Source of the DNA: Russula earlei
Lineage: Eukaryota; Basidiomycota; Agaricomycetes; Russulales; Russulaceae
Reading direction: 5' to 3'
NCBI GenBank assembly: GCA_025769875.1
Contig: JAGFNK010000284.1
Location: forward strand, 1 to 64,000
Length of the DNA: 64,000 bases
Below are positions 1-50,850 of this stretch, piece by piece. The first letter of the stretch is position 1. Each line of letters starts with the position of its first letter. The notes under the pieces are model-generated. The model made no database searches, was not told the origin of the DNA, and saw nothing but the letters and a program-made list of their open reading frames with translations. The position numbers and the translations under genes are program-made.

Positions 1-1660
1 CCGAATAACAACTTGTCAGACACTGCAGTAGATGGCGTGCATGTTCTCGTTCGCCTTGATGATGTCCCTCAAAATTGCGTTCATCTATCTTGTCCAGCGT
101 TTCCGTCAATTCGTCAAGATCTCCTCTCACTGGGTGGAAGACATGTGCCGCAGTGATTCCAGCTGACATTACAACCCACCGGAACCTTCCTCATCATATG
201 AGCGTGCATCACAATCGTAGTGCTACATTCCATCGGCTCGTTCTGAATTGTGTCCACCAGTCTCTTGTCCTCTTCCCGCCATCTCCGAATTTTCGTATCC
301 GAATATACGACAGAACTGACAGATTCGATGATGGTGTCAAGGGTTCGAGCATAGATTTGATGTCAACCCCTGGGCAGCTTGTGATACAGATGTGTAGATT
401 CGGAGAGCACAGTTCAAACGAGAACTTGTCGCCGTAGAGAAGGAGTCCCAGAATTGTTTGGGAACTCGCCAAGGGCAACCACAATTAGGTAAATTGGTCC
501 GTGAATCAGGAGCGATAGCACCTCTTTCGAACCTTGTTTCAAAACACTATCACTAGCCTGTTGTGAGCCATCGTCTTGTTCAGAGTAAAGGTGGGAGAGT
601 GTGTCGAAACATGGATTGGATCGAGAAGAGAGCTGAAAAGAAGAGAAAGGACGAGATTGCACCGGCTTTGCTTATCTTCACGAAAATTATAAGCTACGGT
701 GGCTGATCCAACTTTGCATATACATCGTAAGATGGCGATGTCTTCGATTATGGCTGAGCTGATGTCAACCCATTCAAAAATATCAGAGAAATACGTACCA
801 AAGGATGGCCTTGCCTGATCCCGCCACCATGACAGGAGTCAATGGACTATATAGCTATGAACGTACGTTTCCCGTGAATCCACAAAAAGGTAGCGGTTGA
901 CTTCCGTTCATCGTAGACAGCACTTTCGAAGAACTAGGTGATCGTCCTATCATGTTGGACGCTGCGTGCGATGTTGTGATTTGTGGAAGGATACGATGGA
1001 GAGAGCCATCTACAAAGTCGCGACGGCTTCACTGTAGAATGACTGAGGTTAACAACTGTGAAATAAGGTGACGAATGCTTGACTTGGTCAACATTGCTTG
1101 CTGTGTGCTGAGCGTCCGCTGTTTGCTGGAATGATCACCTTCGCGTCATTCACGGTCTTCTGCATGAGATCTTTTGTTTCTTTTCCGTTCTGCAGTTGCC
1201 ATACGGGACTCCTCCTGGATAGGAGCGTCCAGCCTCCTCAGCGCGTCCTCGATATCGTTCCTTCCCAGCGGCTTCCTCGCATATTTTTCCATATGAAGAT
1301 AAGTCAATAGCGAGAAATCGGGTTGGGTATCAACAACTTATGATGGAGAAGGATGTTCACTAAAGAGGATACCAATACCAGTAAAAATTGCAGGTGAGAA
1401 TACCTAAGAATGAATGATCAGAGAAGATATTTTAAAGAGATAAGATTCACGAGGCCAACGCCTTCACCGATGTGGGTGGAGAACGCATCGAGGACATTGA
1501 TAGTTGGGTTGAGCCAATTTCGTAACCTTTCGTCACTACGACGACGGTGATCGCATTGCCGGACGAGTCCTTGAAGCACGGATAGAACCTCAACGGGAGA
1601 TTGGCATGATTGGAGTTGAGTCGAGCGCAAGAAGAATGGGTGGGAAGCTTTTTCCATTCA
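1..1660 (-). pseudogene. Decayed Goodbye-NACHT receptor (NLR-like) relic, 3' end off the left edge
   Basis: Read on the minus strand, about 1420-1660 encodes a piece like the fungal STAND N-terminal Goodbye domain (motifs TQLQSC, SDERL, WLNPT, GEGVGLV). These match the same positions in the intact receptor at 54-57.6 kb. A remnant of the next exon lies near 1355-1395. Two NACHT pieces follow in different frames: about 414-662 (ending in GPIYLIVVALGEFP, where intact copies have a Walker B LDAIDEC) and 209-400 (CSPNLHICITSCPGVDIKS, equal to NLRICVTSRPE in the intact gene). Frames change between pieces and the acidic Walker B residues are lost, so this is a relic. Any ankyrin part would lie left of the window. 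Confidence 0.7.
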
Positions 1661-1929
1661 AGTAGGCGGAGATGTTTGGGCATTGGAGCCTGCGATTGAG
1701 CCCGGGCCGCACCGCAGGGCTCATCACCCTCATCCACGCAACGACTTCCACATGTACAGTACGGAAGGAGTACCTGCCCCGCAAGAGTCCTTTTTTGTTA
1801 TCAGATAATAGCAGGGTACATTGGGGGTCAATCTGACGAAGTTATGGATCCTCTGCGCAATGGTTTTCAATCATGAGACTCGTGCAGTCTTTTACATTGC
1901 GCTACATCTCGCAATATCAAATGGGTGTT

Positions 1930-3273
1930 CTAGGACTGTACGACTGCTCCGACATGCGGGAAGAGCGACCACCAGATGTCGCTGATCCAAGTGGACCGGC
2001 TATATCGTACAAGGGATGGCGAGTATCCAATCATGTCATGTTAGGTGCTGACTGAAGCATGGAGCGGACACTGATTGCACAGGATAACGACCTCTCAACT
2101 GTACCACATCTCACAACAATCTATTGGTGTCCTAGTGCCGTGCGGATGCTGCTCGAACAGGGTGCGAATCCCAATGTGCGGAACAACAACGGCCAGACAC
2201 CGCTGCACGAGGCATTGGATGCGGAGGACGCCCTTCCCTCTTTGGAACTGCATGCGCTTATTACTGATACATGGTGCGGATGTGAGCGCGCAGAAAAAAG
2301 ACGGCTCAACTTCGCTGCATCTCGCATTATCCCGAGGGCTGTCCAACGCTGCACTGGTGCCACTCCGTTACGGGTCTAATTTTCATGTGCGGAACGAGCA
2401 GGGCCAGACCTCACTGCACTTGGCATCGAGATGGAAGACCACCGGATTACTTCTCATGAGTGGAGCAGACGTGAATGTATGGGGCGAGGACCGCTGGACT
2501 CCCCCTTACTCGAAGGTCACCTGAAGTCTGTACAGCTGCTACTCGACCACTGCGCAAGTGTACACACGCAGAACATCGAGAGCCAGGCACCAGTTCATGG
2601 AACATTTGCCAACCCAGAACCCGATTTCACGCTTATGGTGTCGTTACCGGGGCGTGGAACGGACGCGTGCACGGAGCAACGACCGGTCAACTGGGCTGTA
2701 CCATGCATGGAGACCCCAACACAGTACAGCTTGGCTACTGGTCAATCACAGTGTGAATGTTCAGGTCCAAAACGGCGACGGTCAGACACCACTCCACCTA
2801 GCGTTAGGGAACGTGCACGGCCCAAGGCTGGACAAATTCTGTGAGGTCATACAGTTGTTACTGGGAAACGATGCAGCAGCGGATGCACAAGATAACGACC
2901 CGTGGACTCTGCTACAGCGCACATCACGCTACGGGAACAAAGGTCTTGCTCGAGCATGGGGCAAACGTTCGCTTTCGTCACAAGGGAAAAAGGCCCTACA
3001 CCTTACCTTGGACGATGGATCCCAATTCTGACGTTACGATCTCGACATCACGGATCTTAATGGGCCATGGCGCGGATGTGAATGCCCAGGATGATGACCG
3101 GTCCACTCCGCTACATCGTCGCAACACGCAAAGGACATGAAGTGCCGACAGCTGATCCATCTGGCGTACAGGGAGGATCTGGACGCCCTAGGACTTCTGC
3201 TGAGTATGGTGCAGCTGTCCACTTGCAGCACAACAAGGGAGAGTCGTCATTCGTGCCAGCTGGAGGAGAGTAG
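1930..3273 (+). pseudogene. Ankyrin-repeat relic, several frameshifts
   Basis: At least five ankyrin-like units can be read on the plus strand, in changing frames. Examples are LLIHGADVSAQ and GSTSLHLAL near 2250-2340, GQTSLHLAS and MSGADVNVWGED near 2400-2490, GDGQTPLHLAL near 2770-2810, and MGHGADVNAQDDDRSTPLH near 3060-3115. Stops and shifts separate the units, and no NACHT or Goodbye part precedes them on this strand. It is probably the orphaned C-terminal half of a receptor like those at 9-13 kb and 54-57.6 kb, now back to back with the relic on its left. Confidence 0.7.
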
Positions 3274-4584
3274 GGGAGCGCAGAATCACTCTTGGATCAT
3301 TGGAGAAATGGCCGAACGATATTGTCTGTACGTATGTTTGGATCGGGTCTTTACAAGTACCAAGCGTAGGAGTATGGATATATAAGTCTTCCCTTCCGTG
3401 TCATGTTGTTACCCTTCAAAGTCCCACTTTCCCCTCAGATATTCAATCCAATTTCTTTTAGCTCACGCATGAGATGTCAACAGCATTGACTTGCCACGGC
3501 CAGAAAATGTGATGAACGTTGTAGAGTTGAGCAAGGCAATGACGGGTCATTCGAGTCTCTGGCTCAGTGTTCGCGCCCCACACGCGGGACAACTGATGCT
3601 TACATACTTCCGCCATTCGTATTTCCTCTACTTGATGCCTCTGCGCGTGCCCGAACAGGCAGAACCTGGTTTGCGGCAGTCGTCCTATTTCAGGACATAT
3701 TTAGCATTGTTTCACGCTATCGCGTGGTGAGTGCTTCCATAGTTCATAGACGGGTGGGGCGCCGTGTTTCTCGGTCGGAGCATTGCAAGATGAGGGTTGG
3801 TGTTGTAAGCGAGCGAAGAAACAAACAACTTGAATTGAACTTGCCGAGTTTGAAATTCATGACCACCGATCGAGCCGTCACTCTCGTTTTTCTCTTTTGT
3901 CGCCAGTGTTGATGCGTCGAAGTATTGAATTCTGAAGTTGAGACTTGAAACGCTCAGTACCAAAGACCCACACCTAAAATTGATTGTACGGCCCTCTGCA
4001 ACGAACTAAACCGAACCATAGGTCTTGAGGGCCCGCATATATCGATATTTAGAGTTTTAGTCTAATCTAAATGTTACGGCCCGTTTGCAAGCGTCGCCTC
4101 GACTAGCCGCGCGGTCCGGAATGACGCCACAACTTGAACGGGTGAACCACGACAGGTGAAAATCCGATCCAAGCTGTACCGTGTCCCCTTTGCATTCAGT
4201 TTGTCTACGAGGGCGTCGTTGGTATCCATTTACATATTTTATTTCGGCGCGGATATGGGGTACTACGCATGCGTCAATGTCTTCAAGTTTTTCCCCAAAG
4301 CCGTGCTTGGAGCACATGCACATGTCTGCGGTACTCCATCCCAGAGATTATCCGAGGGAGCATTCACCTGTTCTAGCCGACATTTAAATCTCTTTTGCCG
4401 TAATTCCTCCACATGGATCGATCATCCATGGAATGGAAGGGTGCGATAGATGTCAACTAGCGTTACGGACATCCAACGCGACCAAGAAACGGGACAGAAT
4501 CCCGTCTGAAGGACGTGCGTGGCACAGCGCATATCGCCTTTCGAAAATGTTCCCTTTTATGGATCTCGCTGGCACGGTCTGGCG
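3274..4584. other. Intergenic, no supported gene
   Basis: The short ORFs here have no recognisable motifs, splice logic or family resemblance. The stretch separates the ankyrin relic from the promoter of the small secreted peptide gene. Confidence 0.5.
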
Positions 4585-4591
4585 TATAAAA
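4585..4591 (+). promoter_or_regulatory. TATA box of the small secreted peptide gene
   Basis: TATAAAA lies 85 bp before the start codon at 4670. A pyrimidine-rich tract follows, as expected around a fungal transcription start. Spacing would give a short 5' UTR of roughly 50 nt. Confidence 0.6.
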
Positions 4592-4669
4592 CGGAGCCTC
4601 CTCGTCCCCTTCTATCGTCAGCCTCGTCTTCCTGCGCTCTTCTGCACATCTCTACCTCCTGCGAGTACA

Positions 4670-4863
4670 ATGATGTTCATCAAATCCATTTTGGCACTCT
4701 CCTTTGCCGTTCTCGCTCTCGCTGCTCCCCCCGTTCAACCTCGTCAGGATCGTACGTACTGCTTGATCCCACGGCCATTAGGCGCAACGCTAACCAGATC
4801 AATGTAGCGGGTCCTATCGAAATTGATCTCCTCGGTACTGATCTTCTTGACGTTGCTCTTTGA
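4670..4863 (+). CDS. Small secreted peptide, 45 aa, two exons
   Basis: Exon 1 is 4670-4751 and exon 2 is 4808-4863. The 56-bp intron starts GTACGT and ends TAG, with a CTAAC branch-point-like sequence 13 nt before the acceptor. The joined frame (138 nt) gives a 45-residue protein. Its first ~20 residues form a classic signal peptide (MMFIKSILALSFAVLALA), followed by a proline-rich stretch and an acidic, leucine-rich tail ending LLGTDLLDVAL. It has no cysteines and no CaaX end, so it is neither a hydrophobin nor a lipopeptide pheromone. The tail may be released after the dibasic-like PRQD site, but this is inference. No family is recognised. A TATA box and clean splicing favour a real expressed gene. 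Role unknown; a secreted signal or effector-like peptide is possible. Confidence 0.6.
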
Positions 4864-5808
4864 AGGCATGGTTTCTTCTCTAATTTACTATCAACGTCAT
4901 TGATCTCTTCTAGAAGCGTAAAGCCCCCTCAAAGAAACATCACCCCCTGCGCTCGTGGAACGTAGGACAGTTTGGACCATGGACGTGAGATGTAGTCTTT
5001 GGGGGAGGAAAATATCTGTTCAAGGGCTTTCTTTACTTTTTTGTTCGTTTTAATGTTCGCATCGAACTTGAAGGTGTCGTTTCATTCATATTGAGAAAAC
5101 TTGATTCGTTTGCTTTTCGTGGAATGCGCAATCCCCTTAGTCCGTGAAGTCGCCAGAATATTTCTCTTGTCGATATATATGCCCAACAGGATAGAGAGGT
5201 GCCACGTTGAAGAGGATATTCGCAGCAGACACTACGCGTCGTTTCGCATGGCCAAGTGACTGCATGGTCCAGTGAGTGCAAATAAGAAAAGTGAGTGTTG
5301 CAATCGAAAACGCCAGAGTATAGTTGAACTCGAGAAGCGTCTATTATTACATTGATAGCGAAGTAGAAGTCCTGCCAGTTGCAGGGGTAGTGCTGCCACG
5401 GTGGCCTGAGTCCCAACGCTACATGTTACACTGTTGCTGAGCGGACAGAAAGAGAACTGTTCGTAACTTGTGTCATTGAGCCATTCCTTCATATGGCATA
5501 TCCAAGTTCTTGATGAGACACTGCTGTGGCTCGATCCTGCCCATGTTGATCCGGGTGCTTGATCCCTGAGTCAGTTCCCACTGGTCTCCATACCGTTTTC
5601 CATGAATGGCATTCCGTGTTAACGTCAACGAAAAGTGCACCGTTCTCTGGCATTGCGCACTACATTCCAATGCGCCGCTGCCGAGGCGATCACGTGGTCC
5701 ATTGATAATCGACAATGCGTCCTTGCCACATCTATTACAGACGGGGGTAGGGTAGGGGAAGGGAGTCGTTGCGCACATCGTGCCGGAAAATGCATCTAAT
5801 TAAGAGAG
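4864..5808. other. Intergenic, no supported gene
   Basis: This is the spacer between the small peptide gene and the 3' end of the DUF6535 gene. Short ORFs on both strands show no recognisable protein features. Confidence 0.5.
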
Positions 5809-8454
5809 CTATGAGCCTGAGGGTGAGCGGTGGTTCATGATAGCCCCTAACGCTCTGACCCGGAAACCCTGATCACCGTGCCTCCATTCGATATCCCGAA
5901 GCTCCTTCATCGCGGCATCAATATACGCACTCGTCTGTCCTTCAATCATTTTCCCCAACAGCTTCAGGAGCTCCGTCGTGATGTTGTCGGGGTACGGATG
6001 ATTGGAAAACATGCCACGGTCACGCTCAGCTATGTCGCAAACGATGTTAAGGATGATTTGCTGTGTCCCGAGAGAATTCTTGTACTGCTCCCAGTCTGAT
6101 GTGATGGTTTTAAATGCGCCTATGTAGAAAGTGGTGAACTCCGTGGATGAAGAGGCGGACGACATCAGCAATTGCCTGAGGGCGAGGAAATACAACTCGA
6201 GGGTGAAGCCAAAAGCGCCGCCGACGTACAGATCTTGAAGGCGCCATAATTGCCGTTCCATGAGTCGATGATCGCTCACGACCAATCGTGAGGAAGTGCG
6301 AGTTGTATTCATAGTTTCCTCCACCACTTCGCGGATGCTTTGTCCCTTGCTGATGGAGCACAGACCTTGAAGTCGCGGTTGCAAGTATAGCAACTGGGAC
6401 CGGATAGGGTTGGAAAGAAAGTCGAAAGTATCCTTTAGAGGGGTAGGTCCTGTTGGGATGTCGAAGGTTATACCGGGTAACTGTCGAGTCAAGCCGTGTG
6501 TGACTCTGTCGATTTCGCTTTGAAGAGTGGAAATTCCCCGGTCAATCAGTCCCATATCGTGAGCTTCAACTTGGATGTGTTCCATCACGGCTTCATGGCG
6601 ACGCAGAGTCTCCTTCACCTCGTTCACCACATCGTCGACTTCACTGAAGCGGGCAAATGCTTGATACAGCTTTTCCACACAAGCCCACGCCGCGACAGAT
6701 CGTTCGTCTATCTCCCGAGCATTCCTGAATGCCAGCTCATCGGTATCCAAAGAAACGTCCTCCACCTCCTTGTGCAGCGCAAGCGTTACTATGGTCCCCC
6801 TCGCGTACTGCTGTAGTAGTTGATTGGTTTTCAGCATCTGCCTGGTGGCCACCAAGGAAAGGCATGTCCAACGCATCGTGAATGAGCGATTCAGGCCAGT
6901 CTCAGACAACTCTTGAGTTTTCTCGACTTTGCCAAGGTCGCTAAGCAATTTCCCGATTTCTCCAAACGCGTCCAATTCGGCATTCATACAGAACATAAAC
7001 GATGCCGCGGTCTCAACGCATGCACGTGAACGCTTGCGCCATTCGTTCTCGTCCTCAAAGGGCCATCGATTGTTGCATGTTTCAAACAAGTGCTTAATGC
7101 GTTTGCAAAGTTCGTCGACGTCCAGGACCACAGATGGGAGGTTTCGGTGTGTGCTGGACTGTTGTTGGGGCAGGGAATGGCGGTGGGATGTAAACGGGGA
7201 GATCATGAATGGTTGCCGGCCCCGTTATAGATTCATCTGAGCAAACGTTGGCATGCCCATTGTCCACGATCCCAGCGGCACCTCTCCACACTGCTTGACC
7301 ATATTCCGTATTGAATGAACCAGGAATTCCCAGAGCGAAGGTTTCCATTTCGCCATCCCCTCTGAGGTTATCGGCCAGCCATCCAATTGCGCGTTCATCG
7401 CGCCTCTTGCATGCGTCATTCCCTTCCATCGCTCGCTCTTTCTGGACATCTTCCATACTCAATGGCTTCGCCCCTTTTCCAAAAGGTTGTTTGAACAATT
7501 GTTTACCCTTCTTCCGGAAAAGGTACCAGACGAGGCGAGAGAACGAGGTGCGATAGGGCGATTGTGGATTCATGACCGGTGCAATTGTGCTGATGACGTA
7601 TAGTGCAGCGCAGAGGGTGATGGGAAAAAGAATGGAATAACCCACGGTCGCGTGAGCACTCAGTAGGAAGTCCACGACGCCAATGAAGAAAAGGAAAAGG
7701 GAGATATGGACGAGCACAGGCACCGCTTCTGCTGTCGCCGACATGCCCCAGCCCTCGACTCCCTCGTGTAAATACTGTCGAATTCGTGCAAGCTTGCGTG
7801 GATTACGGTAACGCTTGAAGATGTGCATGTAGTCCCGAGCCCAACGTTGGACGAGGGTGGCTAGAAGAGCCGCAGAGAGGCTGAATATGAGACTCATGAA
7901 GAAATAGGTATTCACGCGAACGTCAGACGCTGACGGGCTGACGGGGGCTGAGAGGGACAGATTGAGAGAATTGGAGGGCTGTGCACCAAGAGAGGACAGC
8001 TGGTTGGAGATAAGGTTAAGCAGCACAACTGATTGTTGCTGAAAATACGCCGATTGTTGAGCGGGGGTCTGTTGTATGTTCTGAGCACGATCGATTACAA
8101 ACGCGGTGAGGGCAGCAGAGAACAGGCCAGCCTTATGTGTGGATCGGTTACTACGATAAAGTTACGCCACAGGATGGAAGGACGCGAACGCACAAAGATA
8201 AGGACGCCATCCATGTCGTCCTTCAAAGTTTCTATCGTTGCCTTGTCGTGACGTTCAGCTTCTTCCCCGTAAAGAGACCATAGTACATTGGCGCTATCGT
8301 CAAAATCACATTCGTGCAATTCTTTGGGAGAGGTGCTTCCGTGGAGGATCCCACCACCCGTAGGAGGGGCTATCGTGTTGTCTATCGGTAAGGCTGTGAG
8401 CCCAATCAACAAAGCACAAGGGTGCCTCACGTCGACTTTGAGCGAGTGTACCAT
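5809..8454 (-). CDS. DUF6535-domain multi-pass membrane protein
   Basis: The minus-strand gene starts at about 8454; the exact start is uncertain. The DUF6535 signature is clear: a cytoplasmic lead-in (KDDMDGVLIF) spliced to AGLFSAALTAFVIDRA across a 62-bp intron at 8132-8193 (GTGCGT...ATAAG). Three further hydrophobic segments follow (around FFMSLIFSLSAALLATL, VLVHISLFLFFIGVVDFLL and ILFPITLCAALYVIST), so about four membrane helices in all. The C-terminal ~450 residues (5809-7158) are soluble and helical, as in other long members. The two parts need a second splice ending at 7159. The donor may be at 7195 (a 37-bp intron) or 7246 (88 bp); both keep frame. DUF6535 proteins are abundant in agaricomycetes and have no known function. 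Confidence 0.75.
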
Positions 8455-38358: not shown

Positions 38359-40053
38359 TCATTGTGCGTCGATGCTGAAGCTTGTGACCTGGGGGAGGTA
38401 TGCCGCGGCTGCGAGGTCGAGGATGTACACATCGTCAAAGACGTCGTGTCCGTTGAACCCGCCAAATACGAAAAGCCGTGAATCGGCGAGGAGCGAGGCA
38501 TGATAACCTCGTGGCGTAGGCGCTCTCCCCAGCGTTGGGCGCGGCTCGTATTGCAACGACACTGACATTCACAAGAAAATTTGCGAAAACTTGGTATTGA
38601 GAAGAAAAACAGAGATGGGTATGCGAGAGACTCACCGAGATTAAAGAGGAGCAACTCCGGGGTGTACTCGGATCCGTCGTGCCCACCCGAGATGAAAAGA
38701 TAGGAGCCGACTTGCGCCGACGAGTGCGATAGGCGGCGGTGTAGCGTATCAGGTTTGATTTGCGTCCAAGTCACTGTGTCTGTGGTGCGTGTGTACGCGT
38801 CGTAGGATGAAGAATAAGCGAAGGACGGGGCGAATGAAGACGGCGGCGGAACGCGGAAGCGGAGCGCACGCACGCACCGAGGTTGAGACACCAGATGTCC
38901 TGGAAGCACTCGCGCCCGTCGCTGCCCCCGACGACGATCAGCACGTTCTGCACCAGATTCGCGGTGTGATAGCCACGCGGCGAGGGCCGTTTGCGCCCCG
39001 CGATCGCGATCTGCTCCCACTTCATCCTCTCGAGCGAGCTGCCGACGTCGAGCGTCCAGACGTCGTTCAGCGCCTGCAGCCCGTTTCCGCCGCCGAACAC
39101 CCAGATCTTGTTTTGATACAGTACCGTCGTGTGCGCGCGCCGCGGCGGGGGCACGTCTGCGGTCGTGAACGACGGGCGCGACCAGCGCCGCGTGGGGATG
39201 TCGAAGACGTGCACGCTGTTATAATACGAGGCGCCTTCTCCGCCGCCGATGATGACGATCTTGCGGCCGACGAGCGTGGCGGAGTGCGCGCGACACGGCG
39301 GTGGCAGGTCGCCTTGCATCTCGGGATGTGACCACTGCATCGTCTCTGGGGAGGAACGGGCGCCATCAGCCCACGCGGTCCGCCAGGGCGGCCGTGGGTG
39401 CGCAACGCACCGATGTTGAAACACCACATGTCCTTGAAACACCCTCTGTCGTCACAGCCTCCGAAGATCCACGCCACATTGTCGGCGAGGGTAACGGTGT
39501 GCGCGCGAAAGCCGTGAGTGGGGAGCGTCCCCCAGACCGGAGCCTTGCTCCAATACATCGCAGGCGGCGGCGCGGGTTCGACGTTCATCACATTCGGAAG
39601 ATGCGGGACCGCGCGGAAGCGAGGAGGCGGGTCCGGCGCGGTGGCGCGGGGTGACTTGTTGGAGACGGCCTCGCGCGAGGCGGAGAGAGAGGTTGAGCTC
39701 GCGTTAGCGGTTGGAGTTGGGAGGCGGCGTGCGGTGCCGTTCGTCGGGGAGTCGCCTGGGGTTGAGTGGCGCGAAGTCGATGGGGGACGTTGAAGGCGCG
39801 ATGAGTTCGATGCGCCACGTAGGGTCGAGGTGGATGCAGAGAGAGAGCTGTTAGAACCGCTAGGATATGGCGAAGGGAAGGACTCAGAGCGGGACGACTG
39901 TCCTCCTGCGGAAACGGGAGGCGTGAGGGGGCGATCGTCACCGGCGGTGGGTAGGGAGGGATGACGCAGGGTGGTAGGTGAACCCTGAGCGGAGGCGGTG
40001 CGTCTGTTATTATCTTTCGACACTGCGCGTGGATGTGCATCGGACAGGGCCAT
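38359..40053 (-). CDS. Kelch-repeat protein, 485 aa
   Basis: Four exons: 39411-40053, 38878-39345, 38636-38779, 38359-38561; all junctions are phase 1 with GT-AG introns. The first ~130 residues are Ser/Pro/Thr-rich and probably disordered. They are followed by about five kelch units with the diagnostic double glycine: AWIFGGCDDRGCFKDMW, IVIIGGGEGASYYNSV, IWVFGGGNGLQALNDVW, LIVVGGSDGRECFQDIW, YLFISGGHDGSEYTPEL and LFVFGGFNGHDVFDDV. Each pairs with an R-x-x-H-type strand, so the fold is a beta-propeller. In fungi such proteins (Tea1/Ral2-like) act in polarity or as adaptors, but I cannot assign an orthologue. A transposon target duplication begins 55 bp upstream of the ATG. Confidence 0.85.
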
Positions 40054-40107: not shown

Positions 40108-40115
40108 CAGGAGGG
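40108..40115. repeat. Target-site duplication, left copy (CAGGAGGG)
   Basis: Identical to 47441-47448 and directly abutting the left terminal inverted repeat. Confidence 0.85.
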
Positions 40116-40245
40116 TAGTGCTGTCGCCGGCTCGGCTCGAAACCGTTTCGAGCCGAGCCGGAGCCGTATCTGAGCCGAGGTAAGCCGTTCAACGGCTCGC
40201 GGCTCGAAACAGCGCGAGCCGTTTCGAGCCGTTTCGAGCCGTTTT
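40116..40245. repeat. Left terminal inverted repeat and GAGCCG-rich subterminal block
   Basis: Ten-base terminal inverted repeat followed by about eleven GAGCCG or CGGCTC hexamers, many in the phrase TTTCGAGCCG. Confidence 0.8.
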
Positions 40246-40249
40246 GAAG

Positions 40250-43190
40250 TGCCAGATTTGGAGTTTTGAAGGGCCAGATTTGGATATGGTTGCTCGATTT
40301 GGAGAGTTGTCTGCCACTTCTACGTCGCGAGCAGGCTCCTCCCTAAGGCTCCCTTTCTGCCATCCTCAGTTACCATTGTGGACATGTGGTCCTGTGTCTC
40401 GTCTTTTTATCTTTATATCCACCTTGACTCAAGTGCCACTCATGAGCCTCGGCAAGATCTTTGGTGCCCCTTCCCCAGCAGAGGCTGCACTGTCTCCTGC
40501 CAAAGCTGCCCGCGTCCCGTCAGAAAGCTCGGCAGCAAACTCGCTGTACGCTACCATCTCAAAGATCTCAGGGTCGACCTCCTGCCACCCATCAACGTTA
40601 CAGCTTACCCCGTCCCCCCACCACTAGTCCAACTGTCGAAGCTTCTACCACCCAGACATCACTGCTCAGTCCGGACAATGGAAAGAAGAGTTGTCGCAGC
40701 ACACTGAGAGTTATGGTCGAGCCCTCACGTGCACCATCAAAGCCCGCCCTGGTCGCAGCTCCGCGCGCGATCCAGAGACGCCGTCTCGCAAAAAAGGAAT
40801 CTTCACCGAACTGTCAGACCGTGGGTCACGTCCAGTGCTTCCTTCATCTGACGAGCAGGTTGCGCTTGGTGACAAGGTGGATCACAGGTATCTGTCATAA
40901 GTATCGGTGGTGCGGAAGCTTCTCCCCAATCGTGCTGCCACTGCTTCTGCCTGGACAGCGGCTGACAACCATTTTTGGGCCATGTAGCTGGTCCCAAGTT
41001 GGTAAACTTCAGTCAGGCGCTCGCGACTGCTGCCGACATCACTTCGGTCGCGACATGGGGCCACGTGCCCCCGACACCATTGGGCATAGAATGCCTGCGA
41101 GCATGAGTAAGGTGCGCAAAGTTATGCAGTGGTTGCGCTTGTGCAGCAAGGGCCATGGTCTCGACGACGACAGAGAAACCTCTGTGCCGCTGGGCAGGAA
41201 GCTATCCGTACGCGATGCCCTTCGTTGTCAGCGCGAATGATTTCATGTGACTGACTTGAACTCTTTGGCGCTAGGATTGCGACAGATCTGAATCCACAAT
41301 TCTGCCTCCAAAGAAGTCGACTACGGAGCAGCAGGAGCTGGAGATGTTGAACCACACCCAGATGACCAATCTGCTTTAACATCGACAAGTCAACTGCTAC
41401 AAAGCTTGGCAAGCCGTCGACGTTGAAAGAGGAATTGTGCATTCTTTCTTATTGTCGACTTTCTCCCTCCCTAGCTCGCTAATGATCGGTATCTAGCATC
41501 ATGTGTAAATCTCTCGAATGGTACAAGTCCTCTCCGAACAACCACCCTGTGCGTTGCATCATCCGCTCGTCCCCACCTCCCCTCCGCTAGCATTTGTACA
41601 CTTGGCTGACTTGTCCACACTTATCAGGTATGACATGCACATAATCACCTACACGTTGCTGTTCCGGATTGTCCGATGGAGGGCCGCCAGTATCAGCGGC
41701 AGCGACTTTACCTACAGCAGCAAATCGTCCATTACCCAGAGTTCGTTGACATCGCCGTCATCCATCATTTCTTCCTCCCGATATCGTGCCTTCCGCATGG
41801 ACAACTCGAGTCGCCCTTCCGCCCATTCCACCGCTTCCTGTTCTAACCAACTCAAAGCGTCATTCGTTGCATCGCAACATCCACATCCAGGAGTCCATGA
41901 TACCGCCCACATATGCGAGCACTGCTGTATGCCTTGACCCATCATCTTCCCGTTCCTCCCCCAGATCGCTGACCGTGCTCTTGTATCTATCACATCCAAC
42001 AGACAGACTGCCTCACCAAATTCATGGTCACAGAGATATGCTCCCAGCTCTTTGACTCGAAGTTCACTTGGCCTTCCTCGCCGCCTATCGCCTCTCCCAC
42101 CTGTCTTGTACCGATGTTCTTGAAAAGTCCATGACCCTAGACCCAGACGACCCTTTCATAATTCCACCAGGTCTATCTGGGCGCCCAACCATTCCACCGC
42201 ATTTACTCCCTGATTTTCCTGCCAAGAAGAGGTGCGCAAGGCGTCTTGCCCTGTTGCTAGACTCTGACAACCCTGACATTCGAGAATGGGCACAGGCCGA
42301 GTATCTCAAGCTTGGACGCATGGGACGTCGGCTTGTACCCAAAGGCGTATTCGAAGTCAAGGTTATGTTGGATGGCACTGACTAGAACCTTGCTGAAGAC
42401 TGGAGTGCCAACAAGCGAGAGGAGGATTTGGAGAAGCTGAGGGAGCGGCTCGAGAGGGACGCGAAGAGCGCGAGGCTGAGTGTGAAATGGTATGCGCATG
42501 GGAGACGTTCGGCAAGTGGGTCATCGATGGACGCGTTGACACCGTGTTTTGGTTTGCCGCAGACGTCCTGAATGAATTGTTGAAGGAGGTCGTGCGGGAT
42601 GAGGGTGAGGAGTGGGTTTTTGGGAGGAAGGAGTCAAAGCACCACCACCAAAGTCAGCCAAAATCAACCCAGAATCACGCGATCCTTCATCCACCCTGGC
42701 CACTTCCAAGACACCAGAAGCCAAGCGAATCGCGCTGAAGGCTGCAGCCTCATCCGCTTCCGTCGCTTCATCGAAACGCAGGGGCGCACAATGCTCAGAG
42801 CCAGTACAGAAGGCCAAACACGAGCCGGAGCTGGAGCCAGTGCTTGAGCCTGCACCTCCACCAGTCCCAGACGTTGACACCAACCAGACAAGGCAGCGGT
42901 TGACGACTCCATTACTGATCCCCCAGTAACCCCCACATGCGCAGCCTCATTATGAACACAGTCCGGAGAGATCGCCCTTACCTGTCCCCATGCCTCTTCC
43001 TGCTGCATTCATCAATATTCTCTGAAGAGGGTCTTCTCACCTATGCCATGAACACCATCCACCCTGATCCGCTTCCAGAGTTGTCCACCCATGTCGAATA
43101 GGTGCGACCCGACTCGCAGCTGAGTAGCAGCAATCAGACAGTCATACCACAGAACCATTCGCGTTCGCCTCAGTGTTCATGCTCAAGGTA
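40250..43190. other. Left interior of the hAT-like element, unidentified fragments
   Basis: Several partial ORFs on the plus strand look protein-like but match nothing I recognise. One at 40443-40627 begins MSLGKIFGAPSPAEAAL. One at 42068-42385 contains DDPFIIPPGLSGRPTIPPHL and IREWAQAEYLKLGRMGRRL. They may be further captured gene pieces. No transposase motif was found here. Confidence 0.4.
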
Positions 43191-43243
43191 TGCCGCCCGC
43201 CTTCTAGTGGTCTTGGTCAGAATTTTTGACTTGCATCTGCCAT

Positions 43244-43890
43244 AGCTTCTACGCCCAGAATGCTCAAGGTTTATCACCCCGGGGCTTAACAGAGGTCTAC
43301 GAAGTGATCAAACGCCTCATTGCCACAATCGCGTCTCCCCAAATTGCAATTGATGAGCGCCACACTCCAAAGTTGTACTCGTGCTTCCTGGAAAGCTTAC
43401 TGGCGAAACATAAACGCGACGGCATGGCCCAGGGACGTATGCCTCAACAGGGACCACCACCGCAGCAGATGCAGACCGGTTTGAATACACCAAGGTACCA
43501 GCAACTACCACAACTACTACAGCAACAGCGACAATGACAGCAGCAGCAACCGCCCCCCCCCCACCACAGAACACAACCTCATCATCACTATCGTCAGGTC
43601 TTAGTGGCAACGCAGGCGCCCCAGATTTACATCAGTCTGTGCCACAGAATAGTGGAGTGACAGCTCCACCCAATTTCACAAATGCAGATTCGACAGAAGG
43701 ACCAGGAAACTACATCCTGGAACAACCACCAGATTTCATGTTTGGTGTCGCAGGCCAACCTTATGAACTGATGGACTTTATGTTTGACACGATCACCAGG
43801 CCTTGGAATGATGACTTGCTCGCAACTATGCAAGTGATCCAGAACCCGACATGGTGGCAGAATATGACGATGCTAGGGTCAGCAGACGCT
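43244..43890 (+). pseudogene. Captured fragment resembling the C-terminus of a fungal transcription factor
   Basis: Segments such as LTEVYEVIKRLIATIASPQ and PKLYSCFLESLLAKHKRDG are followed by Gln/Pro-rich low complexity, then PPDFMFGVAGQPYELMDFMF and NPTWWQNMTM. This resembles the fungal-specific C-terminal region of Zn2Cys6 regulators. A plausible intron end precedes the fragment near 43247. No DNA-binding domain is attached and the frame shifts near 43530, so it is a partial, non-functional piece. Confidence 0.4.
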
Positions 43891-44197
43891 TGTCTTTATG
43901 TTGTCTCTATCTGACTTGGGTTGACATCTAACCCTCGGAAATGGCATAAATACCTATCAGAACTTGCAACAACCTGCAGAAGGACTTTGCAGCTAAGCAC
44001 ACCCGGGCTCGCTACCCACCACTCACTCTGTCGCCAATGCCTCAACGCTGCCTCCTTTCAAGCTCACCCCTCAATGCTATGAAACCAACACCACCGCAGC
44101 TACAGCAACGCAACAACAACATCAACAGCAAAGTGTTTGTGCGTGCTGCGCCATGCAATCCTCCCAAAGCGAAACCCCCGCTGAACGCTTGCCCTTC

Positions 44198-45203
44198 TTA
44201 GCCTGGAGGTGCTTGTCATGCGTGGCACCAGAGAGCTTGGCCAGATCTTCGCGGCCATGCACCAGACATCCACCAACCTCAGCCGGACGGCGTCCATCCC
44301 AACCGCAATCGTGATCGCGCAGCTCGCGCTCAAGCACCAGCAGAACAAGAACCTCCGCCAGCGCGTCGTCGTCTTCGTTGGCTCCCTGCTCGAGGACACT
44401 TCGCCTGACGCCGAACGTGCCCTAGTCCGCCTCGCCAAGAAGCTCAATAAGACCAACGTTGTGCTCAACATCATCAAGGAGGTCGGCGAGGGCAGCCACA
44501 GTATCCTCCGTGCCTTTGTCAAGACCGCTTCCTCTTCCAACAACTCGTAATGTCCCCCTCCTTAAATTTCTGTAGCCTGCTTACAAGTCCAGACCACTTG
44601 TGTTTTCTTGGTCACTCGTCCTCCAGACATTTCCTCGCCGTCTCACCCGGCCCACACCTCTCCTCCATCACCCTCAACTCCCTGATCCTGGCCAGCGACC
44701 GTGGCATCCCAGACGAGCTTGCCGCCATTCCTGGTGGCGAGGGCGGGCACTGCCAGCACCAGTGGTGTGTCGCAGTTTGAGTTTGGCATCGACCCCAGCC
44801 TTGGCCCCGAGTTGGCCATGGTACGTCCTCCATCCTCCCGACCCGACCCAACCCGACAACAAAACTCAGCATACGAACCAATAAAAAAAACCAAAAAAAA
44901 AACACCAAGACAATCTCTGCAGATGTCCATGGAAGAGGAGGTGGCGCAGCAGGCAGCTGACAACGCCCCGCCCCAACCGCCACCGGGTGCAGCTGCGCCA
45001 GCAGCGGCTGGTCCAGACGGTGTGCCAGCGCAACCTTCTCAGCCGGCGGCTGCCACCAACGAAGGTGAAGAGGCGGATCTGCAGCAGGTGCTCGCTCTCT
45101 CCGAAGGTCGCACCGTTCCTGACATCGAGATGACCGAGGAATGTGAGAGGGAAGAGGATCTGATGAAGGAAGAGATGATTGCGCCGGCCATTGCGATGAG
45201 CAT
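44198..45203 (+). pseudogene. RPN10: Captured, 5'-truncated RPN10 (proteasome ubiquitin receptor) fragment
   Basis: The plus strand encodes the second half of the RPN10 VWA domain: LVMRGTRELGQIFAAMHQTS, IPTAIVIAQLALKHQQNKNL, RQRVVVFVGS, LRAFVKTASSSNNS. Then come LAVSPGPHLSSITLNS and GIPDELA, and the UIM region: GIDPSLGPELAM spliced over an intron (44822-44922, GTACGT...CTGCAG) to MSMEEEVAQQ, and further on APAIAMSM. Stops and frame changes interrupt it (for example after SSSNNS), and the first ~75 residues of RPN10 are missing. The retained intron shows capture at DNA level rather than via mRNA. Confidence 0.8.
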
Positions 45204-46185
45204 GCACCCCGAGGTGGAATCAGACGTGCAGGGCATGTGGAAGGTCAGTTGGACGATTGTGCACCACCTCACAAGCCATGCGCTCATCGGGCATCCAGGT
45301 CTTGACCGACAACGTAAACTTGATGGTCATGAATTTGACAAACCAAGTGCGCTCAATCACCGAGGTAACGGAGGCTGTAGCGAGCGGAGACTTGACAAAG
45401 AAGGTCGCAGTTGACGTCTGTGGTGAAATGCTTGACCTCAAGGAAACCATAAACGGGATGACGGAGAGCTTGAGTGTCTTCGCTGATGAGGTGAGTCGAG
45501 TTGTACACAAGGTCGGAACAGAGGGTCGTCTGGGTGGCCAGGCAAACGTGACGAACATCGGTGGATTGTGTATGGTTTGTCCGTATCACGTCAAAGAACT
45601 TCCTGGGACTGACGTCACGGCTTTATCTGACCGCAGGACCTGACGGACTGAGTGAACGTGATGGCGGCTAACATGAGTTGGACACAGGCAATTCTTTCCT
45701 TATCAGCCTGTTTTTCTGATGGATGAGTGCAGTTGACTCTACAAGTCCGAACCATTGCTGTAGCTACGGTGAGTTGAGGTTCATACATGGTTTGAATATG
45801 ACGATGCTCTCTCAGACTGCCGTCACTTGAGGAGATCTGACCCAAAAAGTGACTGGCATATCTGTTTCTGGAGAAATCTTTCACCTGGTGAACACGATCA
45901 ATGACATGATTGACCAGTTGGAATTCTTCGCCTCGGAGGTTAAAAAGGTCGCGCGAGCATCTGCCTTTGAGAGTGTGATGAGGTAGGACTGCGCCGACCT
46001 CATGGCTGTGATGTTGGTACGGAAGGCAAATTGGGCGTGCAAGCTGAAGTCGGCAATGTTCAGAATCTGGCAAGAAATCATGTAGGTCATTCCCTCGCCT
46101 CGTGTTCAGTCATTTGACGTCACCCTTTCTCTCCAAGGGAATGTCAATCAACAAGATGGCTGGCAATTTGATCACCCGAGTGCAT
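45204..46185 (+). pseudogene. Captured HAMP-repeat fragment of a group III (Nik1/Os-1-type) histidine kinase
   Basis: HAMP-repeat phrases typical of Nik1-class hybrid histidine kinases occur in order: VQGMWK spliced to [102 protein letters not shown], then NKMAGNLITRV. In-frame stops (such as LTD-stop-VNVMAAN near 45655) and shifts make it non-functional. Introns are recognisable between repeats (for example 45244-45299). The start is fused directly to the RPN10 fragment within one ORF. Confidence 0.75.
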
Positions 46186-46229
46186 GAGTCGTCGACTCCA
46201 CCGCCACCCACTCCACCGCCACAGGGCCC

Positions 46230-46945
46230 GTTATCCTTCAAGCCCAAGGTCCACACCTCGCTGCACCGCACCGTGTTCGACTCGCTCTCGATCCGCGTCA
46301 ACCCCAAACCGACACAGAGCGAGATACAGCCCATCTCAACACTCGCGACTGCTGAGCGCTACCTCTTGATGTGTTTGCGCACGCGGCTGCCGTCAATCGC
46401 GCGCCCGCTGCACGATGCTGGCTCTGGCACTGGCAAGGGGCGGTGCGAGGGCGAGGTCTTCGTCTTCAACAATGGCAGCTTCGTGTGTTGCGGCCTCTCG
46501 CAGGAGGACGCGATGCAGTTCAGGAGGGATGTGTTGTCGCCCGCAAAGGCTGAAGTTGGTTCCTTCGCTGAACCAGAGGCGGAGGAGCTACTTTTTTTCC
46601 TTGTTCTAATGCAGGAAGACGCAACTGCAGGGAGACCTGATCATCCTCAGGGATGGTCCACAACCTCCCCACCCGGAAAACCTTCTCGATTCGTGCCGCC
46701 GTCTGTGTCTCCCCAAGGGACGGTCCTGGCGCACTATGCGTTCTCCCAAGCCCTGTCGCGCTCAACTGCTCTCTCTGCGCTCCAGGCTTCGCTCGAGGAC
46801 TAGCTCTCCTCTATGTCCTCACTCCCGCTGGCTCTAGAGAAGACAGGAAACCCGGGCATGAGCCGACGCACTCTCGTCAAGAAGCTGGGCGAGCTGCTGC
46901 GCTTCCGCCTCCAGTCATCGGGACGTGACCAGGAACTCATGAGGG
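46230..46945 (+). pseudogene. Captured RMD1/RMND1-like (DUF155) fragment
   Basis: Recognisable DUF155 motifs: TAERYLLMCLRTRLPS, GEVFVFNNGSFVCCGLSQED, EAEELLFFL, AHYAFSQALSRSTALSALQAS. After a stop at 46801-46803 come LEKTGNPGMSRRTLVKKLGE and LLRFRLQS. RMD1-family proteins act in mitochondria or membrane-linked sporulation processes. This copy lacks the mitochondrial targeting region and the C-terminal membrane segments and carries stops, so it is a fragment captured by the transposon. Confidence 0.75.
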
Positions 46946-47209
46946 GATTTGTCACCGCGTTACAGCTCTCCAATCGACCTGTAGTTGTCGGCGATTGGGG
47001 ACGCCCACATCTAACACTTGCATGCAACCAACATCAATTGTTACAATGTATCAATATATCTACTTATCTGAATTCCAGTATTGTGCTTGCTGCTTCAGTA
47101 CACTTGGCAGGATATAGATGAGATTTTGAAATAAGGCAGAATCATTTTGAGGGGCCAGTGTACGCCGGTTCAGAGTTCGAGACGAGACTTCAAAGCTCAC
47201 TCAACTGGA

Positions 47210-47440
47210 CCAAAAGTAGAAATGGCCCAAATGGGATGGCTTGAATCGGCTCAGCCAATGAGAGGCATCGAGAGCGTTCTCAAAATGGAAAGTAGATCCA
47301 AAAGTAGAAATGGCCCAAATGGGACGGCTCGAATCGGCTCAAGCCGCAAGCCGTGGCTTGGCTCGGTCCGGCTCACCCAATCTGGCCAAGCCATTGCTGA
47401 GCCGAACCGAGCCGAGCCGAGCCGAGCCGTGACAGCACTA
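47210..47440. repeat. Right subterminal block with direct repeat and terminal inverted repeat
   Basis: Two near-identical ~47-bp direct copies (47210-47256 and 47298-47345, starting CCAAAAGTAGAAATGG) precede a run of GAGCCG/CGGCTC hexamers and the 10-bp terminal inverted repeat. Confidence 0.75.
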
Positions 47441-47448
47441 CAGGAGGG
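47441..47448. repeat. Target-site duplication, right copy (CAGGAGGG)
   Basis: Identical to 40108-40115 and directly abutting the right terminal inverted repeat. Confidence 0.85.
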
Positions 47449-47668: not shown

Positions 47669-47677
47669 CCTTACGCC
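47669..47677. repeat. MULE target-site duplication, left (CCTTACGCC)
   Basis: Nine bases identical to 50842-50850 and immediately outside the element. Confidence 0.8.
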
Positions 47678-47840
47678 AGTCTTTGACATTTCGCGGCGTG
47701 TTGAATTACCATAAAAGGCGATTGTGTCGGCAAGAGAGTCGGGACTTCAATCACGCGTTAACGGATGTAATTTAGTTATATAAGTGGGTTAATAATAAGA
47801 TAACTCCTTACCATTTTCCCCCTACCAAAAAAAAAAAGAA

Positions 47841-50383
47841 ATGCAATCTCGTTTCCGATTGATTGGCGCGCCATCCGCATCATCCGCCCATTCCGGCCCG
47901 AGCGCCCCTTTTGCGACACAATGTTTCCAGATCACTGCCAATTCTGGAAAGAGGGGAGGACTCAATTATGACCGGGAGCACGGCGGATACCCCATGGAAT
48001 GGCCGACAGCAGCCGATTTCGACGCGTGGCGCCGGCAAGAAGAATTGGCTCACTCAATTGAATTGATTCCATCGAGCACCAAGCATGGGCAGGGATGGAC
48101 AAAGAAGGTTTTCGTCTGCTCCCGCCAACTATCCGGGGGAGCTTCGAGTTATGTAAAGAAGCACCCCGATCGCACACGGAGATCCGAGATCAAGAAGACG
48201 GGTTGCCGTTGCCGAATAGTCATCAAGTCTTACGCGGACGCGCCTACCATTCTTGGACAATATGCAAGCGAGCATTCCCATGAAATCGGAATTGCTAATC
48301 TCGCTTACACACGAATGTCACGTGTAGCGCGTGATAAAATTAAATTCATGCTGTCAAAGAAGGTTGATCCACGGGAAATAGTAAGTGCCTGTATTGAATT
48401 TATTTTATTTTTATTCGCTAACTTAATAATGGAAAGGTACGCGATATTCAGGATTCATCGCCCGATGGCAGCCGAGACCGATTCATCTCGCTCCGGGATG
48501 TAAGCCGCATGGCCCGGGAAATGGAAGATGAGATTATCAGGCTGCATCCAGAGGATGCTATCTCCACCAGGCTCTGGTTGGACAGGTTTACAGATGAAAA
48601 AACAAATGTTTTTTACAAAGACAGGCTGCACAGTGCCCCATCTCAATCAAATCTGCAGGAGGATGCATATGTATTATGCATCCAGACCCCTTTCCAAATG
48701 GAGGCATTCTGCCGCCTCGGGAACGGCTTCATCGGTATCGATGCAACTCATAATATTACTCAATATCCAGACTTTTTATTATTTACCATGATCGCGCGCG
48801 ATCACTGGGGACATGGTGCGTAATATTTACTAAATGTCAATTTAGCGCGCTTACCCTTTCCGGATAGGTGTGCCTGTTGCCTGGATGCTGGCATCCAATG
48901 GAACAAAGGACACAATATCCTTTTTTGTCCATTGGGTCAGGGATGCCAGTCCGGCTGTCCGGCTGTCTATTATTATGACAGATCGTGATGCCGCGCAGAT
49001 TGCCGCCCTCAAGATTGCCTATCCGGGAAGTCAGATATGGCTTTGCAAGTGGCACGTGTTGCGCGCGATGCAATCACACTTCCATGCTAACAATTTTCCT
49101 GATCTTTGGGATAAGATCAAGAGATGGGTACATACAGATGATCAGGCCGACTTTCTACAAATCTGGGAGGAGATCTCCACTGATCCTCAGGTTCCAGAAA
49201 CTTTTGTGAACTATCTTGGGTCCCAATGGATGCCTGTGGTGCATATGTGGTCCATGGTTTACCGGAAAAATCGACATATCTTTGAGGAAGGGGACACCAA
49301 CATGTTGATCGAAGCGTATGTGATCCTCCCGATCTAAAGATAAGATGACTCAATCTTTTTAGATATCATCATGTCCTCAAATCACATTGGCTCGACGGCA
49401 AGCGCAATCGGCGGATCGATCAAATATTATTTGTTCTAGTGCGTCGCATGGTGCCGTATTACCAAAACAGGCACGAACGGCAGAACGTCGGGCTCGATGG
49501 TCAGGACCTGGCGGCTGACAGGCGTCATATAATTTTCACCCGTGCCGAGAGCATCTCACAACATTCGATCTTGCAATTCGATGAGATCTGCTTTCACGTC
49601 GCTTCACAGTCCTGTTCCGGTGCGTTTTACTCAATCGATCTGATGAAGTCAACTTGTGATTGCACAGATTATCCCCGGATTAGATTCTGCAAACACATTG
49701 CAGCAATCTACATCCACTTTCCCTACCTCTGTCCTGAGGGGAGCACACAAAAGGAATGTGCAAATAAATCACCTGACCCCCCATCCCCATCATCTTCTTC
49801 ATCCACACCAAGGGAGAGCCTAGTATCTCTCTCACAGGAGATCATATCATTATCGCGCGATCTCACATCTAGGCTTGAAAACGCTAATCAAACAGCGGAG
49901 ATCATTGAGGCCACACGGGCCGCCAAATACAGTTTGGCAGCCGCAATCAATTTAATTCAAGGCTCCAAGGTCTTACCTGATAAGGAAGTGATCGCGCCCA
50001 ATCAGAAAACGTGGACGGAGACAGCCGAGCGTATGGGTGTCAAACTCAAACGGGGCCCAAAACAACGGACCAGTCTCCCCGACGCGCGGGGATTGACAGC
50101 GCGAAGCATCGGCGTCGCTAAGGGAAAGCGCCGCCGTGTTCACGATGATCCGTACGCCGGGGGCGAACGGTCGGGCAAGCGCGCCAAGCCCGATGCAACA
50201 TCTGCCGCCGCGAATGCGTGCACGCGTGCCCTCGGGGAACCGTCGTCCCTCCCTCGGAACCCCCCTCCCTCCGATGCCGCCGCCTCCCTTGCACCAGGTC
50301 CCTTCGGACTCGCACCGCTGCCTCTAACGGCCTCAACTGTTGCTGTTCCTTACAATACAAAATCTTTTTTTGTATCAATTTAA
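47841..50383 (+). CDS. MULE transposase with SWIM zinc finger, 795 aa
   Basis: Four exons (47841-48380, 48437-48815, 48868-49315, 49363-50383) joined by 47-56-bp GT-AG introns, all in phase. The N-terminal part has a FLYWCH/WRKY-GCM1-like region (KKTGCRCRIVIKS, then HSHEIG). The MULE catalytic domain follows: GNGFIGIDATHNITQYP, DHWGHGVPVAWML, IIMTDRDAAQIAALK and LCKWHVLRAM. A SWIM finger (CDCTDYPRIRFCKH) comes next, then a Ser/Pro-rich tail with basic stretches (GKRRRVHDD). D residues typical of the DDE triad are present in GIDAT and TDRD. No stop or shift was found, so this copy may be autonomous. The C-terminal ~50 codons lie in the tandemly duplicated 3' segment. Confidence 0.85.
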
Positions 50384-50841
50384 TTTATTTGTCTAATAGC
50401 TAATAAATAAGTCATTAAATATGTAATTGAGAAAATGATTTGGTGACATTTAAATGCATAATTGATGTACCAATTCTCTTGCCAACAAAATCGCCTTTTA
50501 TGGTAACTCAACCCACTGCGAAAAGAACGCAACTGCCCTCGGGGAACCGTCGTCCCTCCCTCGGAACCCCCCTCCCTCCGATGCTGCCGCCTCCCTTGCA
50601 CCAGGTCCCTTCGGACTCGCACCGCTGCCTCTAACGGCCTCAACTGTTGCTGTTCCTTACAATACAAAATCTTTTTTTGTATCAATTTAATTTATTTGTC
50701 TAATAGCTAATAAATAAGTCATTAAATATGTAATTGAGAAAATGATTTGGTGACATTTAAATGCATAATTGATGTACCGATTCTCTTGCCAACAAAATCG
50801 CCTTTTATGGTAACTCAACCCACCGCGAAAAGAACGCAACT
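50227..50841. repeat. 307-bp tandem direct duplication of the MULE 3' end
   Basis: 50227-50533 and 50534-50841 are near-identical (a handful of substitutions, such as GCCGCC/GCTGCC and GTACCA/GTACCG). Each copy contains the last ~50 transposase codons, an AT-rich segment and the right inverted repeat. Confidence 0.9.
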
Positions 50842-50850
50842 CCTTACGCC
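50842..50850. repeat. MULE target-site duplication, right (CCTTACGCC)
   Basis: Nine bases identical to 47669-47677 and immediately outside the element. Confidence 0.8.

Follow-up and report, generated by a model that had tools for sequence, protein, structure and literature searches.

A non-autonomous hAT element carrying fragments of five host genes in Russula earlei

The window analysed here, a 64,000-nucleotide stretch of contig JAGFNK010000284.1 from the basidiomycete Russula earlei, contains at 40116-47440 a transposable element with hAT-type ends, between which lie fragments of five host genes: a transcription factor with the PF04082 domain, a conserved Russulales gene, RPN10, a Nik1-type histidine kinase and RMD1/DUF155. 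We consider it very probable that this is a non-autonomous Pack-hAT which would be moved in trans, which would have gathered its cargo stepwise by template switching and whose cargo would now be decaying. An earlier note on this DNA, made from the letters alone, had proposed a non-autonomous gene-carrying element in a basidiomycete, and this is supported by further copies, an empty site, donor genes and transposase-encoding relatives with the same ends. The proposal is amended in that the element belongs to a larger family of mosaics, whose transposase-bearing members also carry cargo.

Ends, empty site and copies

The element and its boundaries are as follows.

40116-47440, + strand: the complete cargo-bearing, non-autonomous hAT element, 7325 base pairs (bp), delimited by its ends and by the empty site
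40108-40115, no strand: left target duplication CAGGAGGG, read in the sequence
47441-47448, no strand: right target duplication CAGGAGGG, read in the sequence
40116-40125, + strand: left terminal inverted repeat TAGTGCTGTC, 10 bp
47431-47440, + strand: right terminal inverted repeat GACAGCACTA, 10 bp
40116-40328, + strand: left terminal and subterminal region, common to the families described below, with GGCTCG-type repeats
47210-47440, + strand: right subterminal and terminal region, common to the families

As the earlier note had described, TAGTGCTGTC and GACAGCACTA form a perfect 10-bp inverted repeat pair and a perfect 8-bp duplication stands directly outside both ends; inward of the terminal repeats, GGCTCG-type repeats are found on either side. 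CAGGAGGG as such is not rare (4 occurrences in the window for 2.18 expected). What counts as evidence is where it stands, together with the empty site and the fact that the ends recur at other places in the genome. The empty site is present on contig C1323 (locus L040), where the flanks are joined by a single CAGGAGGG, the left flank being 99.25% identical to that of the window (670 bases) and the right one 98.7% (237 aligned columns). The earlier note had suggested looking for such a site in other strains; the single CAGGAGGG is indeed seen, within this assembly itself, on a contig almost identical to that of the window and probably representing the other haplotype. The insertion took place as a single unit of 7.3 kb and duplicated 8 bp of the target.

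The genome examined (R. earlei assembly G000, 66.6 Mb, 1374 contigs) contains four further full copies with the same cargo order and the same junctions, on contigs C173, C587, C25 and C586, and the two ends therefore do co-occur elsewhere, as the earlier note had asked to be verified. Each copy is bordered by its own perfect duplication (GCTGTCTT, CCATCAAT, CCATGTGG and GGGTTGTT, respectively), which, including the window, makes five full copies with five different perfect 8-bp duplications. Identity to the first 6474 bases of the window element amounts to 99.4% for C173, 97.9% for C587, 95.9% for C25 and 95.5% for C586, and six 120-bp stretches taken across the junctions can all be aligned over their full length in each of the four. 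C29, whose left part runs off the contig, has five of these stretches whole and the sixth from base 7 onward. Because the search for copies by similarity scored 40 of 219 candidates, further copies are likely. One empty and five occupied sites show mobility as a unit.

The earlier note had reported no transposase, and no hAT dimerisation or transposase match is listed within the element among the candidates scored (150 of 260 and 150 of 164). Similarly, a blastn comparison with the transposase-bearing element of contig C19 (see below) revealed no transposase region in common. Mutator elements would display a 9-11-bp duplication and a MULE transposase, whereas the duplication here is of 8 bp and the relatives encode hAT. 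The inverted repeats and the 8-bp duplication, both of which a Helitron would lack, also argue against an element of that kind; RepHel was not searched for.

Cargo segments, donors and joins

The interior of the element is divided as follows.

40400-41260, + strand: left mosaic of several short segments, recurring in other combinations in families 2 and 3
41249-41673, + strand: 5' piece of the transcription factor (PF04082), 88% identical to locus L032, with a match to protein P0113
41673-43162, + strand: fragment of the conserved Russulales gene, in place of 578 missing bp of the transcription factor (loci L030 and L031, 88.8 and 88.5%)
43160-44005, + strand: 3' piece of the transcription factor, extending to the protein end (L032, 86-92%; P0113)
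44148-45224, + strand: RPN10 genomic fragment with introns (loci L035 and L036, 84%; PDB match)
45223-46189, + strand: intron-bearing fragment of a Nik1-type histidine kinase, HAMP region (locus L029, 86%)
46186-46907, + strand: RMD1/DUF155 fragment (locus L038, 81% and 92%), in which about 70 bases present in C173 are missing near 46589
46908-47209, + strand: tail, part of which is also found in short family members

All five pieces share one orientation, as had been noticed earlier. RPN10, the Nik1-type kinase and RMD1/DUF155 had been named from the letters alone and are borne out by domain or structure matches and by alignment to host genes; the transcription factor had been given as probable and is now identified by a direct protein match, while the fifth source gene, at 41673-43162, had been missed. 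The RPN10 piece matches Pfam VWA_2 with an expect value (E) of 2e-4, below the curated cut-off, and the PDB Rpn10 chain 2x5n with E 2e-15. HAMP is recognized in the Nik1-type piece (E 9e-9) and DUF155 twice in its own, once with E 4e-9 and once, below the cut-off for this domain, with E 3e-5. Pfam scans of the transcription-factor fragments returned chance matches only, and their identity rests on P0113, a full-length 794-residue R. earlei protein with PF04082, of which residues 589-664 match the element at 83% (76 residues) and residues 706-794 at 87% (89 residues). For the conserved Russulales gene, relatives occur throughout Russula and Lactarius.

For four of the five source genes, donors were retrieved that look intact in the stretches covered, all on contigs other than that of the element; element coordinates plus 40115 give window coordinates. 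The conserved Russulales gene (element 1558-3047) aligns with C405 and C141 at 88.8 and 88.5%, RPN10 (4033-5109) with C541 and C182 at 84%, the Nik1-type kinase (5108-6074) with C75 at 86% and DUF155 (6071-6474 and 6494-6792) with C243 at 81 and 92%, so that the fragments have been traced to unlinked parental genes elsewhere in the genome, as the earlier note had proposed. The two transcription-factor pieces (1134-1558 and 3045-3890) were aligned with a repeated copy of the C16 type at 86-92%. C405 and C141 are 99.3% alike and C541 and C182 99.2%; this near-identity indicates that the assembly probably holds both haplotypes in part. C1081 (L034), C87 (L033), C909 and C8 were considered as donors and rejected: they are read as related elements because their stretches run through element joins (by blast for C1081 and C87).

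The transcription-factor fragment is itself repeated, at L032 1008-2923 and in at least 20 other places, about 81-87% like the window piece. Several public R. earlei proteins (P0142, P0162 and P0207) match the transcription-factor domain and could be gene models carried by transposons. The element family as a whole is a warning that, in genomes of this kind, a gene model may be a mosaic borne by a transposon.

Alignment with the RPN10 and Nik1 donors showed no intron-sized stretch missing from the element, which implies that genomic DNA was copied; the introns were deduced from frame changes and GT-AG borders, not from transcripts. In the C19 element, the captured RPN10 piece is interrupted by a piece of Nik1. 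There, RPN10 runs to GGAATCGGA, is followed by about 1.4 kb of Nik1 in three blocks and is taken up again from TCGGAAGAAAAG (join order ..ATCGGA / Nik1..CTCG / GAAGAAAAG..), with five RPN10 bases occurring both before and after the insert, and with microhomologies CGGA and TCG (3-4 bp) at the joins. The window element has kept the first RPN10/Nik1 join, has a longer first Nik1 block and then passes to DUF155. At the five joins of which both partners are known, 4, 3, 3, 2 and 1 bp are shared (the start of RPN10, the end of DUF155 and the internal Nik1 joins of C19 are left out of this count), and the chance that at least three of five joins reach 3 bp is about 0.001 under a simple equal-base model.

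The nesting of Nik1 in RPN10 with microhomology at both joins points to stepwise capture by template switching in break repair. According to the model that we propose, breaks within elements would be repaired by microhomology-guided switching to host-gene templates, cargo would accrue through successive repairs, and later deletions and exchange between elements would generate different mosaics. A transposase from relatives with the same ends would move the element in trans, by cut and paste, and the cargo would by now be largely decaying passenger DNA, mutating at methylated CpG sites. Such decay at CpG is what would be expected if the elements, and not the donors, are methylated. Taking the donor as the older state, 14-24% of CpG sites have undergone a transition in the element, versus 2.4-5.1% of other C/G, in all five segments.

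The wider family and its transposase

A 26-base pattern of the left end, allowing at most one mismatch, occurs 84 times in the genome versus none for the reversed control, and an 18-base pattern of the right end 108 times versus once. Pairing the 84 left ends with 100 listed right ends in the same orientation and within 15 kb yields 29 pairs, and a pair of these on C20 has its right end in common; among the ends listed, this corresponds to 28 elements of 3.3 to 14 kb, 21 of them with a perfect 8-bp duplication. Three further families with different cargo were distinguished: family 2 (C261, C18, C367), family 3 (C142, C788) and family 4 (C205, C1032, C88, C389). Cargo of family 4 includes the HATPase part of the histidine kinase and a protein-kinase piece (Pfam Pkinase 4e-24), presumably of a MAP kinase. 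The cargo of C20, C46, C83, C166, C328, C609 and C664 was not read, except for the transposase region of C20, and in C173b the transposase region alone was read.

The hAT transposase with the same ends that the earlier note had wished to see is found in relatives. The element of C19 (10,120 bp, duplication CATGGACG) has the same terminal repeats and encodes a hAT transposase, whose dimerisation exon (PF05699, E 2e-14) has 12 near-complete places in the genome and lies within five of the 28 paired elements (C19, C20, C22, C110 and C173b). The gene has short introns and, in the orientation used here, reads from right to left. Eleven of the 12 places were fetched and four partial ones dropped, leaving seven copies, for which 12 exons were modelled, N-terminal exons excluded. 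Across these exons C22 displays no stop and no net frame-breaking indel. The ratio of nonsynonymous to synonymous substitution rates (dN/dS) is 0.19-0.48 between two subfamilies and 0.79-1.36 within them. Among public sequences, its leading matches are mushroom BED/hAT proteins, the best being 43% identical over 95%. Moreover, transposase-bearing members carry multi-gene cargo too. The transposase of these relatives probably moves the window element in trans, to judge from the common ends.

Some members show additional peculiarities. Family 3 (locus L018) contains a DUF155 piece without DNA match to that of the window, and a gene of this type may have been captured there independently. The composite 14-kb element G000:C110:97056-111123 has no target duplication, and its transposase gene is split by about 3 kb at a point within an intron of the C19 model. 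Some 500 bp at G000:C122:83672-84180 hold two left ends along with a right end in inverted orientation, which may be a relic of end-to-end fusion of elements.

Alternative explanations, known systems and surroundings

Template switching has to be weighed against the possibility that cargo was gained mainly through fusion of neighbouring insertions followed by re-mobilization, or through recombination among members, as in the tandem-insertion model argued for plant Pack-TYPEs in the portions of that study available (PMC8903248). The families do contain the same segments in differing arrangements, 41073-41673 and 43160-43592 being also present in family 3 and in part in family 2, and tandem or nested ends are seen on C20, C25 and C122. 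On the other hand, the joins that were read pass directly from host gene to host gene with no terminal repeat between them, and RPN10 resumes after Nik1 at its own break point, with microhomology. We therefore regard this origin as unlikely for the bulk of the cargo; exchange or fusion of elements must nevertheless have contributed to the mosaics as well. It is a good deal less probable that the fragments are functional and under selection, for instance by yielding a shortened RPN10 protein or silencing RNA. A 121-codon RPN10 frame is open in all six copies examined, with dN/dS of 0.16-0.83 between copies where computable and of 0.44 between donor and element. Yet its 21 amino-acid changes equal the 20.8 (standard deviation 2.3) obtained by simulation under CpG-biased mutation, in which 59% of 5000 runs were stop-free, and the DUF155 piece of the window has an in-frame stop at a position where the donor continues. 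Selection on the RPN10 frame was thus rejected, an open frame and a dN/dS below 1 being expected from CpG-biased drift, and these sequence comparisons provide no evidence for cargo function or selection.

Capture of transcripts, known for histone H3 in hAT elements of ascomycetes (PMC3538342, PMC6710886, as far as accessible), is rejected for RPN10 and Nik1, whose intron-sized stretches were carried along, and appears highly improbable for the cargo as a whole. Nothing was found in favour of a plain series of host genes or of an error in the assembly, and both can be practically dismissed given the empty site, the four full copies elsewhere with different duplications and the location of the donors on other contigs.

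Several observations weigh against a trans-mobilized element filled by template switching. The microhomology count covers the five joins with two known partners and does not extend to the start of RPN10 or the end of DUF155, and the mosaics common to several families are compatible with recombination between elements as well. C1137, whose sequence begins at the edge of its contig, retains three of the six junction stretches, and C129, which has only the left 1.5 kb in common, none. Seven of the 28 paired elements are without a perfect duplication: that of C788 has 7 bp and is offset by one base, that of C173b matches at six of eight positions, and five (C88, C110, C22, C571 and C166) have none, C22 with its open transposase exons being among them. 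Six of the seven transposase copies counted carry stops or frameshifts. We still favour the non-autonomous Pack-hAT with stepwise capture. A broader proposal, toward which we lean somewhat less than half-way, is that the whole hAT lineage, including its transposase-bearing members, would be a stepwise accumulator of gene fragments by out-and-back template switching, in which mosaics are traded and new multi-gene combinations still arise, some at least segregating between two nuclei.

Pack-MULEs and Helitrons combine and amplify pieces of several genes, as described in the accessible text of a 2026 review on plant gene capture (PMC13317346), where a search for hAT gave no match. The Russula elements resemble them in this joining and amplification. 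They differ from both in transposase and ends, with an 8-bp duplication and a hAT transposase in relatives. The earlier note held gene capture to be much less described in fungi than in plants, especially for hAT elements, which has to be qualified: in the parts of the literature seen, hAT capture is known in maize (PMC3260210, PMC8903248), in animals (PMC8277862) and, for a histone H3 transcript, in ascomycetes. Maize Pack-hATs, such as the two Ds2 and nine Ds-l4 elements with gene fragments among 903 (PMC3260210), share hAT ends, the 8-bp duplication and genomic capture with introns, whereas the examples seen there concern one gene each and the Russula element, in a fungus, has five, with several identical-junction copies and a nested capture. 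Among animal Pack-TIRs, 208 of 370 are hAT; breakpoint microhomology is common to them and to our element, and gap filling or fork stalling and template switching were proposed for them, but the same source, as far as available, gives few multicopy cases (four), in contrast to the multicopy multi-gene families and cargo-bearing transposase relatives of Russula (PMC8277862). The histone H3 elements of Pyrenophora tritici-repentis and Mycosphaerellaceae likewise have a host gene between fungal hAT ends, in longer transposase-bearing and in shorter forms (PMC3538342, PMC6710886, accessible portions). They hold one gene, from a transcript, in Ascomycota, whereas Russula has several intron-bearing fragments, in Basidiomycota.

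No multi-gene Pack-hAT in Basidiomycota was found in the literature covered (PMC10853768 and PMC4289320 included), which was mainly open-access, seen in part, with bioRxiv preprints outside its scope. Within it, and as far as the searches show, what is new is the presence of several genes per element in many copies, a nested capture with donors available, multi-gene members that bear a transposase, and the basidiomycete host, which extends multi-gene Pack-hATs to mushrooms. Three routes are under debate for gene capture by cut-and-paste transposons, namely end bypass, the fusion of neighbours and template-switch repair; here layered captures, donors, matching junctions and an empty site come together, so that the order and mechanism of capture can be read directly.

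The surroundings of the element contain two further features. About 0.2 kb to its right lies a Mutator-like element at 47678-50841 (Pfam MULE 6e-8; FAR1 4e-5, below cut-off), bordered by a 9-bp duplication CCTTACGCC at 47669-47677 and 50842-50850 and likewise missing from C1323. To the left of the hAT element, a kelch-like reading frame on the minus strand (39067-40053; Pfam E 2e-7, below the curated cut-off) has its inferred start codon 54 bp from the target duplication, and the hAT element may sit in the upstream region of this frame.

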